DNA from: Adlercreutzia muris
Lineage (GTDB): Bacteria; Actinomycetota; Coriobacteriia; Coriobacteriales; Eggerthellaceae
Direction: 5' to 3'
Length of the DNA stretch: 64,000 nt
Assembly (NCBI RefSeq): GCF_008831045.1
Contig: NZ_WAJS01000011.1
Location: 1-64,000, forward strand
Shown here: piece by piece, positions 1-4,431 of the stretch
Layout: every line of letters begins with the position of its first letter
Numbering within the stretch: position 1 is the stretch's first letter
The notes under the pieces: generated by a model
The model's input: only the letters and a program-made list of their open reading frames with translations
What the model was told of the DNA's origin: nothing
Databases searched by the model: none
Translations under genes and position numbers: made by a program

Positions 1-3000
1 GGGCTCCATGCCCTCGGGCAGGGTGGCCTTGATGACGGCGTCGGCGAGCTTGGAGTCCGGCGCGGCGTTGGTGGAGGTGACGGTCACCTGCAGGGTGTCG
101 CCCACCATGAAGCGGTCGCCGTCGTGCTCCTCGGTGTGCTCCTTCAGCTCCACCTTCACGGTGGTCTGGATGTCGGCCGCGGGCGGGTCCTTGGGCAGCA
201 CGGGGGTGGGGCCCACGGTGCCCGGGTTCGCCGGCTGCGGGTTGTCCGGGTTGTCGGGGTCCGGCTCGGCGTCGTCGCCGACGATGACGATGTCCTCGGG
301 CTCGAGCGGCTTCACGTCCGGGGTCTCGCCGGGCTTCACGTCGCCCTCGGGCTTGCCAAACTCGCCGCCGCCCGCGGGCTTGTTCACGATCTCGGGCAGC
401 TTGCCGTCCTCGGGGCGGTCGCCCAGGCCCTCGTTCTCCCCCACCGTGGCCTGGAAGCGCACCGAGGTGGACTGGCCGCCGTAGACCGAGCCGATGCCCT
501 TGGTGAGCGTGGAGGTGCCGTCGTCGAACTCGTAGCCGTCGGCGCCGCCGCGGTCCACAGCCTTCCAGCCCAGGCTAGGGTCGTCCCAGTCGAAGCCGTC
601 GTAGAAGGCTGCCGTGCCGAGGGAGGTGCTCTTGTCGGTGCGCGTGGCGTAGTTCGGAGCTATCTCCACCGACTTCGCGTCGAAAGAGAGCTTCGCGTCG
701 ATCATGTCCTTCAGCTCGGCGGCCTGCCAGGCGGAACCAGGCGTCAGGTTCAGGCCCGTGACCGTGTACTCCAGCACGTCGCCGGGGCGCGGCGGGGTGC
801 TCGCGCGACCGTCCGTCGCCCGGGCGGCGAAGGCGGCGGCGTCCCCGCTGGCCACAGCAGCCAGGCCGCGGGCCGCGAGGGCCATGGCCGGCTCTCCCTC
901 GGCCTCCTTAAGGGCCGTGAGGTTGCGCCAGGTGAGGCGGATCTGGATCTGGGGCCGGATGGAGGGGTCGGGGGTCACGTTCACCGTGAGGATGTACTTG
1001 ATGCCGGTATAGAGGGCGTTGGCCTTCTGCTCCACGGTGATGACCGAGGTGCCGCAGCTGTTAATCTGCACCTGGAGCTTACCGTCCTCGCCGATGAGCG
1101 GCGCGCCGTCCTCGCCGCGCACCAGATCGGCCACGGCGTTGTTGGACACGGCGTAGGTGGGCTTCACCGACGAGCTGGACTCAAGAGCCAGGGCGAAGAA
1201 GTCCTCCAGGTCGGGGTTGTCGGTGTCGTGAAAGTCGGCATAGCTGGCCGTGATGGTCTTGCGGATGACGGTCATCTTGCCCGTGGGGTCGTCCGGGTCG
1301 GTGCCGCCGGGACCCGGATCGGGCGTCTCCGATTCCTCGATATCCACCGGGCCGTCGGGCTTCACGTCGCCCGTGGGAGGCACCGGCACGATGAAGGCGT
1401 CGTCCTCGCCGGCGTTCTCCGGGTTCTTGTCCACGCCCTCGATATAGTTCTTGTCGGCGATGTACTCGAGGTTCACCTTGTGCTCCTCGCCGTTGCCGGC
1501 CGATTCCAGCAAATCGAGCAGGCCGTCGCGGTTGGCCGGATCCAGGTAGTAGGTCACCACCGTGGCATGGCGCGTCTCGGGCTTGCCGTCGGCCCCCTTC
1601 ACCGATATGTCCTTCTCCTCAATGGTGGAGTGGGCCGACCTCCCGATCTCCTCGGCCGTGAGCTTGATGGGGTCGCCCACTTTCTTACCGTCGATGCGCA
1701 CCTGGAAGCTGCCCGTGGGCGCCGCGCAGGTGAGCGCCGTGGTGTTGGCCGAGCGGATGTTGAAGGTGAGCTTCAGGCGGTTGCCCGCGATGCCGCTGGC
1801 AGTCTGGTCCTTGACGATGGGCTGCCAGGTTCCCGAGTCCACGTCGAGGTGGCCCCACTCCACGCCCTCAATCTCCAGCACTGCGGGCACCGGCGTAATC
1901 TTCGCCCAAGCAGTGATGCGGTGGCCCCAGTAGTTGCTCTCGAACGTGGCGTCGGTGGCGTATTCCTTTGACACCAGCTGCACGCGGAAGGTGCCGGTAT
2001 CGGCCGGCATGGCGGTACCGGTCACGACCGAGCTTCCCGGCAGGGGGCTTCCGTCCACGGCGTCGTAGGGTTGATAGGAGGTGGTCACGTGCTTCATGTC
2101 GGTGAGCGTGTACTTGTTGCCCTGTTCGGACACGAACTCGATGGGCTTGTCGGGCGTAATGGTCAGGGGCTCGAAGGAGAGCCCGTCGTACTCCTTCACA
2201 AGGCCCGAGAAGTACTTCTGCTGCTCCGCGCTTAGTTTCTCGACCTGGATGTCGATGTAGCGCTTCAGGGTGGAGCCCTGGTCGCCGCCCACCTCCTCGA
2301 CGTACATGGGCTCGATATCGTGCTCTTCGCCGTTCTTGTCGCGGTAGGACATGGTCACGGTCACCTTCTTGCCCGTGGCGCTCTCGGGCAGCCACAGGTA
2401 CAGCTTGCCCTTGTCCAGGTACGACGGCGCGCCGTACTCCTGCTCGATGTTGTCGATCTCCAGCTTCCACTTGGTCACGGGCACCGTCTTGTCGGCATCG
2501 GTGGCGCCCTTGTCGAACTCGCTCGACAGGTCGATGGTGAGCATCTGCACCTTGTCGGTGTCGGGCAGGCCGTCAACGCCGTTGTCAGCCTTGTACTGCT
2601 CCACGTCATCCCAGTTCTCGATGCCCTGCGTGTTGAACGCCGTATCGCCGATGCCCTGGAAGGCGGGCTTGCCGTTCGACTTCTTCTGCACCATGACCGA
2701 GCCGCCGGTGACAATAGTGTAGCCGAACGAGGCGCCCAGGGCGGCGCGGGGCGGATCGGCGCTGTTGATGTCATAAGTATTGGTGAGCAGCGTGCCGCCG
2801 GTGACGCGCACGATATGGTTGCGGTTGGAAGAGGGCCCATGGGCGCAGCTCTGGCCGAAGGCATTGCCGTGCTGACCGCTGTTGGCGGAGATGAAACCGC
2901 CGTTCACGGTGATATCGCCCGCCACGGTAAAGTAGTTGGTGTCCTTGGCAGAGCCGAGGTAGTGCACTCCCTGGGGACATGTTATATGAGCGGCCTTGCA

Positions 3001-4308
3001 GCAGAACCACTCTACGCTGTCGGGCCGGGCATCGAAGCTGTAACCGCCCGAGGCCGCCTCGCCCGTGGGAATGTTGATGGCATCGGCCTTGGGAGTGCCA
3101 CCGCGGTGATCGGCGGTATAGTAACCCAGGCCCGAGCCAATGCCGGCGCCGCAGGAGCCGGCCGTCGCCGTCACGTTGCCGCCGTTGAAGACCATCACGG
3201 TGCCCGATCCGGAAGAGCCGCCGCCGATACCGGCGCCGTTGGAGAGGGCCCAGCGATCCTTGTTCCAGGGCAGCACCTGGGACGTGATGATACCGCCGTT
3301 GAAGACGAGGGTGCCGGCGTTCTCGTTGGCCGCCGATCCGATACCGGCGGAATGGCCGCCGCCGGTCACGTTGAGCCTGCAATCGGGCGCCTCCATCTCC
3401 GCCAGCGAATCGCCGGCCTTCAAGCGGGTCACGCCATCGTAGAGAGTAACGTCCTCGGGCACCATGCCCCCCTTGGGCGTGACGATGTCGGCCAGATTGA
3501 ACTTGGAACCGCCGGCGCGCACATTCGTGAGGGCGTCGTCGATGACGAGGATGGAGCCCCAGCCGCAGCGAATGCCGGGAGAGCCGGTGGCGGTGGCGTT
3601 GTTGCAGACCAGCGTGTTCGTCGTACCTGCGCCAATGGTCAGGTAGAGCATGGTCTTGTTCGTGATCTGGTTGGCGTTGGTGACCTTCTTGCCGTCCTTG
3701 TCCTCATCGGAGTTGGTGACGAGATTGATGGGGGCCAGAGACGAGTTGATGTTCACGCCGGCCAGGGTGAGGTCGGCCTTCACACCGGCATTGATCTCGA
3801 TATTGTGGCCCGTGGCAGCCGCCGTGCTCACGGTGAGCGGCGTGGATGTGAGGATATGCAGCGTGGTGCCCTCGAAGAAGTAGTCGCCGTCGCCGGCCGT
3901 CTGGCTCGTGGCGGCCTTGCCGCCCACGACGGTGAAGCCGCCCGCAGTCTGCCCCTCCCGCGGAGCGGGAACCTCGGCGCCGAGGGCGCGGGGCACCAGA
4001 TTGCCGAGGGCGGCGGCCACGGAGGTCGCAGCGGCCCCCTCTTCAGCCGTGGGCGCGGCCTCGGCGGCAGTCGGGTCGGCGGCTGCGGCGTTCTCGCCGC
4101 CCGTCTCGGCGGCCGTGGCCCCGGGCGCGGGGGCGCCCGCATCGACGAGGGGCCCATCGAATGCCCCCTCGCCGGAGCTGCTTTCAGAACTTAGGGGGGG
4201 GGTAGCGGTATTTTCCCCGTCGGCGTAGGCGGCGCCGGCCGGGACCATCAGGCCCCAGGCGAGCACAGCGGCCAATGCGCTGCGGAGGAACCGATGCTGC
4301 TGCTTCAT
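1..4308 (-). CDS. Secreted surface protein with beta-helix, Ig-like and DUF11-like domains (3' end outside window)
   Basis: An open frame runs from ATG at 4306-4308 to the left edge (1,436 codons) with no stop, so the C-terminus is missing. The start follows AGGAG by 9 nt and opens a signal peptide: basic start (MKQQHRFLR), hydrophobic core, and a likely cleavage after AYA at residue 29. An Ala/Pro/Glu linker (about 34-135) contains a C9 tract. Residues about 135-540 carry 'AGIGS...GTLVFNGGIIT' and 'GAGIGGG...VMVFNGGNVT' repeats, typical of right-handed beta-helix regions of gut surface proteins. Then come beta-sandwich or Ig-like stretches, an MBG/Big-like domain (about 1015-1115), a DUF11-like domain from about 1174 ('RPGDVLEYTVTGL'), a Pro/Asp-rich linker, and a second DUF11-like domain cut by the edge. 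A wall anchor is expected beyond the window but not seen. It has its own promoter, downstream of the giant gene. The adhesin role is inferred; no ligand can be named. Confidence 0.88.
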   Translation of the reverse strand, partial: MKQQHRFLRSALAAVLAWGLMVPAGAAYADGENTATPPLSSESSSGEGAFDGPLVDAGAPAPGATAAETGGENAAAADPTAAEAAPTAEEGAAATSVAAALGNLVPRALGAEVPAPREGQTAGGFTVVGGKAATSQTAGDGDYFFEGTTLHILTSTPLTVSTAAATGHNIEINAGVKADLTLAGVNINSSLAPINLVTNSDEDKDGKKVTNANQITNKTMLYLTIGAGTTNTLVCNNATATGSPGIRCGWGSILVIDDALTNVRAGGSKFNLADIVTPKGGMVPEDVTLYDGVTRLKAGDSLAEMEAPDCRLNVTGGGHSAGIGSAANENAGTLVFNGGIITSQVLPWNKDRWALSNGAGIGGGSSGSGTVMVFNGGNVTATAGSCGAGIGSGLGYYTADHRGGTPKADAINIPTGEAASGGYSFDARPDSVEWFCCKAAHITCPQGVHYLGSAKDTNYFTVAGDITVNGGFISANSGQHGNAFGQSCAHGPSSNRNHIVRVTGGTLLTNTYDINSADPPRAALGASFGYTIVTGGSVMVQKKSNGKPAFQGIGDTAFNTQGIENWDDVEQYKADNGVDGLPDTDKVQMLTIDLSSEFDKGATDADKTVPVTKWKLEIDNIEQEYGAPSYLDKGKLYLWLPESATGKKVTVTMSYRDKNGEEHDIEPMYVEEVGGDQGSTLKRYIDIQVEKLSAEQQKYFSGLVKEYDGLSFEPLTITPDKPIEFVSEQGNKYTLTDMKHVTTSYQPYDAVDGSPLPGSSVVTGTAMPADTGTFRVQLVSKEYATDATFESNYWGHRITAWAKITPVPAVLEIEGVEWGHLDVDSGTWQPIVKDQTASGIAGNRLKLTFNIRSANTTALTCAAPTGSFQVRIDGKKVGDPIKLTAEEIGRSAHSTIEEKDISVKGADGKPETRHATVVTYYLDPANRDGLLDLLESAGNGEEHKVNLEYIADKNYIEGVDKNPENAGEDDAFIVPVPPTGDVKPDGPVDIEESETPDPGPGGTDPDDPTGKMTVIRKTITASYADFHDTDNPDLEDFFALALESSSSVKPTYAVSNNAVADLVRGEDGAPLIGEDGKLQVQINSCGTSVITVEQKANALYTGIKYILTVNVTPDPSIRPQIQIRLTWRNLTALKEAEGEPAMALAARGLAAVASGDAAAFAARATDGRASTPPRPGDVLEYTVTGLNLTPGSAWQAAELKDMIDAKLSFDAKSVEIAPNYATRTDKSTSLGTAAFYDGFDWDDPSLGWKAVDRGGADGYEFDDGTSTLTKGIGSVYGGQSTSVRFQATVGENEGLGDRPEDGKLPEIVNKPAGGGEFGKPEGDVKPGETPDVKPLEPEDIVIVGDDAEPDPDNPDNPQPANPGTVGPTPVLPKDPPAADIQTTVKVELKEHTEEHDGDRFMVGDTLQVTVTSTNAAPDSKLADAVIKATLPEGMEP
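4194..4202 (-). repeat. C9 homopolymer in the coding strand, candidate phase-variation tract
   Basis: Nine consecutive C residues on the coding strand lie in codons 36-39 of the 1-4308 gene, just after the signal peptide. As given, the frame is open (Thr-Pro-Pro-Leu). Loss of one C puts TAA directly after the tract. Gain of one C reads CCT AAG TTC TGA. Both slips stop translation within three codons, before any surface domain. Confidence 0.75.
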
Positions 4309-4317
4309 GGCGGTCAT

Positions 4318-4322
4318 CTCCT
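4318..4322 (-). promoter_or_regulatory. Ribosome binding site for the 1-4308 gene
   Basis: AGGAG on the minus strand lies 9 nt before the ATG at 4306-4308. It supports this start over the next upstream in-frame codons, and the signal peptide that follows agrees. Confidence 0.85.
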
Positions 4323-4401: not shown

Positions 4402-4431
4402 ATTATATACCCTTCTTGTCCCCGATGCCAA
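4402..4431 (-). promoter_or_regulatory. Sigma-A type promoter for the 1-4308 gene
   Basis: On the minus strand, TTGGCA (4426-4431, five of six matches to TTGACA) and a perfect TATAAT (4402-4407) are 18 bp apart. Transcription should start near 4395, giving a leader of about 87 nt. The site is an AT-rich patch in otherwise GC-rich DNA. The -35 box lies only 3 nt past the stem of the preceding hairpin. Confidence 0.82.

Follow-up and report, generated by a model that had tools for sequence, protein, structure and literature searches.

A nine-cytosine run behind the signal peptide probably phase-varies a large surface protein of Adlercreutzia muris

We analyzed a 64,000-nt stretch of DNA from Adlercreutzia muris (the window), in which a run of nine C lies early in a gene for a large secreted protein. 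On sequence comparison, this run is very probably a slipped-strand contingency tract by which a surface protein, secreted and probably anchored by sortase, undergoes phase variation. The coordinates of the gene, the tract and the predicted signals around them are listed in Table 1.

Table 1. Features of the tract-bearing gene in the window
Feature	Position	Strand	Basis
Candidate C9 slippage tract, codons 36-39	4194..4202	-	Read from sequence; C9 = ON frame
TAA, immediate stop in the C8 (-1) frame (ACC CCC CCC TAA)	4191..4193	-	Read from sequence
TGA, stop three codons downstream of the run in the C10 (+1) frame (CCC CCT AAG TTC TGA)	4184..4186	-	Read from sequence
Surface-protein gene in the ON frame; 1436 codons within the window	1..4308	-	Translation
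Predicted Sec signal peptide MKQQHRFLRSALAAVLAWGLMVPAGAAYA	4222..4308	-	Translation; cleavage site assigned by visual inspection
AGGAG ribosome-binding site, 9 nt upstream of ATG 4308	4318..4322	-	Read from sequence
Promoter-like TTGGCA-18-TATAAT, 11/12 consensus positions	4402..4431	-	Sequence
Conserved all-beta domain, residues 110-460	2929..3981	-	Confident fold model
Several beta domains, residues 455-1140	889..2946	-	Fold model
DUF11-type / isopeptide fimbrial-like domain, residues 1171-1297	418..798	-	Profile match

The run is read as G9 on the plus strand and as C9 on the coding (minus) strand, at the place where an earlier note on this DNA had reported nine C. The tract reads ACC CCC CCC CTA AGT TCT GAA and is translated in frame as ...ENTAT-PP-LSSE, so that the residues after the signal peptide and across the tract are DGENTAT-PP-LSSESSSGEG (translation of 4308-1). 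The predicted signal peptide ends seven residues before the tract, which bears out the claim that the run sits just past it. The note had also claimed that slips of -1 and +1 both lead to a stop within three codons, and we confirmed both stops. A pure homopolymer of at least eight bases early in the ORF and prompt termination after a change of one base in either direction are features of phase-variable genes, and the window gene has both. It is currently in the ON state. No comparable run had been noticed elsewhere in the window; the longest other C/G run in the 64 kb is indeed six, and A/T runs do not exceed five.

The C terminus of the window protein is missing because the gene runs off the start of its contig (C11). 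Ahead of the tract, the Sec signal has a hydrophobic core and an AYA cleavage motif, an arrangement similar to that of the pilin-type genes of Bifidobacterium breve. The promoter-like sequence upstream is likely to be the gene's own promoter. A fold search against the PDB with residues 110-460 gave nothing usable, and residues 455-1140 showed a weak Ig-like resemblance, with low TM-scores, to S-layer and giant-adhesin arrays. A Pfam search with the window protein returned no domain. In residues 1171-1297 the profile match to the DUF11 repeat was above the cut-off and that to the isopeptide domain below it. The relative in Adlercreutzia mucosicola ends in LAQTG, a hydrophobic stretch and RRGREEGAR, a sortase-type anchor; in the window copy this part is cut by the contig end. 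The window protein is probably a secreted, sortase-anchored surface protein, and adhesion is our guess at its role. The neighboring ORF, on the minus strand of the window (4545-64000) and continuing to about position 78,600 of contig C11, comprises 24,693 codons from stop to stop. It ends with LPQTG, a hydrophobic stretch and a charged tail, as in a giant sortase-anchored protein, and, if correctly assembled, ranks with the largest ORFs known from bacteria.

About ten relatives of the window protein are encoded in the same genome; further ones occur in four genomes of the same genus (G002-G005), one of the same family (G012) and one of the same order (G038), and none was found in the viral collection. 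In the search of genome contigs, the closest named relative, and the sole named match, was A. mucosicola DSM 19490. At least ten paralogues in the genome, and about 20 more genes of four congeners and one further genus, have a C9/C10 or G9/G10 run in the corresponding position. Among 29 relatives with a visible signal peptide, the run lies just downstream of it, with a length of nine in 23 and of ten in six. Seven of them are in frame (the window gene, L011, L024, L043, L057, L071 and L077) and 22 are out of frame. Tract length was independent of which length would be ON (nine:ten, 7:3 vs 15:4; P = 0.66), which is what one would expect of lengths determined by slippage and not by current need. 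The on/off switch proposed from the window alone is therefore supported by about 30 homologues with a same-place tract, of C9/C10 or G9/G10 and in both frame states. Breakage of the tract in relatives, which would have spoken against it, was seen in a minority only: L060, an orthologue of L024, no longer has the tract and reads in frame, L059 has C6 and is ON, and the run is absent from three paralogues with another N terminus (L059, L050 and L064). The six homologues in G038 have no tract.

Tract length also varies among close relatives. At the same locus, L001 of the A. muris genome (G10, OFF) and L077 of G003 (G9, ON) are 98% identical over 413 residues downstream, and another same-locus pair, L044 (C9) and L048 (C10), is 82% identical. 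Both pairs combine a varying tract with an intact downstream ORF, a further feature of phase-variable genes. L057 (C9, ON) and L059 (C6, ON) are 87% identical. The paralogues L043 (C9, ON) and L051 (C10, OFF) have common flanks, and the window gene (C9, ON) has a C10, OFF relative in A. mucosicola. In OFF copies, the downstream frames stay open for about 1000-1700 codons. The dN/dS ratios of OFF/OFF pairs were 0.33-0.49 and that of an ON/ON pair was 0.30; OFF copies are under purifying selection. They should be expressed at least sometimes, because permanently off genes would decay.

One subfamily, here called type B, behaved differently from what a free three-state switch would predict. In its members, which were found in a related genus as well as in four genomes of Adlercreutzia, the signal peptide ends in ...TET and is followed by PPPIEFSE, and the ON lengths are C8 or C11. 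Of the copies whose signal peptide is visible, all 17 were OFF, with C9 or C10; neither ON length was seen. Similarly, a length-agnostic pattern run against 138 genomes found C9 or C10 in 15 of 15 type B copies. If the three frames were equally likely, the probability of all being OFF would be about 0.001, although the copies are related. Type B might be a default-OFF reserve that is turned ON only in the host, or slippage during transcription or at the ribosome might give a low, constant level of expression, the tract being tuned to this and not to heritable switching; we put this forward as a minor possibility. There is a precedent in B. breve, whose pilus G-tracts are OFF in the reference strain.

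A broader alternative is that the tracts act mainly at the level of expression, with RNA polymerase slippage or ribosomal frameshifting giving a fixed full-length fraction from 'OFF' genes and no heritable switching. The constancy of type B at C9 or C10, with frames intact and constrained, is what such a model would lead one to expect. A +1 shift can occur at CCC-C, a known motif for it, and would bring type B copies at C9 back into frame. However, the same shift does not restore C10, and no single programmed shift fits both lengths. In addition, seven genes, including that of the window, are read in frame at nine without any shift, and orthologue pairs differ by one base at the DNA level. We therefore consider this alternative improbable. 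We rejected programmed frameshifting on its own as an explanation, since C9 and C10 copies of type B would need different shifts.

It is less probable still that the run arose by chance in a GC-rich genome, or as a by-product of codon bias, and has no function. A dinucleotide shuffle of the window gave an expectation of 2.6 runs of at least nine, and this null by itself does not reject chance for the window C9. The shuffle is a poor null, because it expects 85 runs of at least six where four exist; the organism therefore avoids such runs. In 290 kb of the A. muris genome, the counts fell from 555 runs of five to 35 of six, five of seven and three of eight. Counted by exact length, the whole genome has 16 runs of eight (three of them cut by contig ends), 33 of nine, seven of ten and one of eleven. 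The C9 run has no counterpart within the window, but genome-wide there are 41 runs of at least nine. Even if the 16 runs of eight are taken as the expectation, 33 runs of nine have a P value of about 1e-4. The nine-base runs are a separate excess, forming a second mode in the run lengths of the genome. CCC-CCC encodes only five of the 130 Pro-Pro pairs of the family and the neighboring giant gene (tract excluded), compared with about 43 expected from codon usage, and it is nevertheless retained at the tract. At the 5′ ends of family genes there are ten tracts against about 0.05 expected with relatedness ignored; such P values are too strong, because paralogues are not independent. One tract site has been kept in about 30 diverged homologues, and none is present in the homologues of G038, which belongs to another family. 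Pure chance was rejected on this recurrence across the family, although the shuffle null alone would permit it. Hardly any weight can be given to sequencing or assembly errors at homopolymers, by which all copies would truly be in one state: the assemblies are drafts and some contigs end within runs, but C9 and C10 co-occur within one assembly, type B is out of frame at C9 and C10 alike (including in G002, with a main contig of 2.95 Mb), and a length error would neither conserve the run nor create a second mode at nine.

If the run is a contingency tract, as we prefer to read it, the gene would be transcribed from its own promoter, translation would start at the ATG at 4308 and the ribosome would meet the C run after the signal peptide. 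At C9 (or C6 or C12), the remainder of the large protein would follow in frame. At C8 or C10, a stop within three codons would leave only a short exported peptide. DNA polymerase slippage would alter the tract by one base, and such slips would go uncorrected by known mismatch repair, since its components were not found: MutS domain V was absent from 60 of 60 genomes of the family, none of nine Adlercreutzia genomes had the MutL domain, and NucS was not found in the A. muris genome, while the controls were detected. Because the same device is present in at least ten paralogues, the cells of a clone should differ in the surface proteins that they display. From these comparisons we infer heritable switching within one clone, loss of the protein in the OFF state and a benefit of switching to the bacterium.

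Further runs of at least nine in the genome touch genes for a GT2 glycosyltransferase, a LytTR response regulator and another secreted protein and lie at the start of an HsdS-like frame; all of these are typical classes of phase-variable genes. The over-representation of tracts (33 nines vs 16 eights) is thus accompanied by their presence in surface, restriction and glycosylation genes. At L027:1459-4051 (minus strand), a G10 run, out of frame, joins the GT2 glycosyltransferase (363 codons) and a 520-codon frame. A G11 run at L025:2992-3576 splits the LytTR response regulator inside its receiver domain, possibly making it a phase-variable regulator. At L008:1239-2338, a G9/C9 run marks the junction of two HsdS-type specificity frames that lie on opposite strands; a type I restriction system may here combine shuffling with slippage. 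The gene for the secreted protein (L019:3-3170, minus strand; about 1000 codons or more) carries an in-frame G9 run within the signal-peptide region. Of the other runs of at least nine, many are intergenic or have no assigned gene, and we do not claim all 41 as switches. Three contigs of the A. muris genome (G000 C27:1, C40:17221 and C61:1) and one of G012 (the end of C134) break off within C/G runs of 8-9, which could be caused by mixed tract lengths in the reads. Within the genus, the number of C9 positions ranges from two (G007) to 262 (G004) at similar genome sizes.

These results point to a sizeable set of probable contingency loci in Adlercreutzia gut commensals: one genome has 41 runs of at least nine, ten of which lie in the 5′ parts of genes from a single surface-protein family. 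Surface make-up would then vary between isolates and between strains even where gene content is the same, which is relevant to host interaction, to phage sensitivity and to the interpretation of 'frameshifted' annotations.

Homopolymer phase variation is a classical mechanism, and the probable slippage tracts in Adlercreutzia are a new instance of it. In the literature library searched, we found no report of slippage phase variation in Adlercreutzia or Eggerthella, nor for their class; a preprint on phase variation in E. lenta concerns inversions. In Cutibacterium acnes, another high-GC actinobacterium, 54 variable homopolymeric tracts include those of dermatan-sulphate adhesins (PMC4746626). 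As in Adlercreutzia, they are nearly all G/C and lie in or before surface-protein genes, but their variation is documented across 90 strains, whereas ours is known from comparisons between species and paralogues. Gardnerella has many tracts of at least eight, LPXTG surface-protein genes among their targets, and lengths of 9 and 10 between colonies (PMC11287997). Most of its tracts are upstream of genes, whereas the Adlercreutzia family has its tract within the ORF, behind the signal peptide. The closest known system is that of the sortase-dependent pilus G-tracts of B. breve UCC2003 (bbr_0113 and bbr_1889), which lie between the Sec signal and the LPXTG ORF, are OFF in the reference strain and have ON variants enriched in mice (Penno et al. 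2022, PMC9187656). Both are gut actinobacteria with a G/C homopolymer between a Sec signal peptide and a long surface-protein ORF, and in B. breve the omission of a single base from the OFF reference genome gives the ON state. B. breve does not belong to the Coriobacteriia, its protein family is unrelated and its slippage was measured, whereas that in Adlercreutzia is inferred from comparison. Conversely, at least ten tract-bearing paralogues are present in one Adlercreutzia genome, compared with the pilus loci of B. breve.
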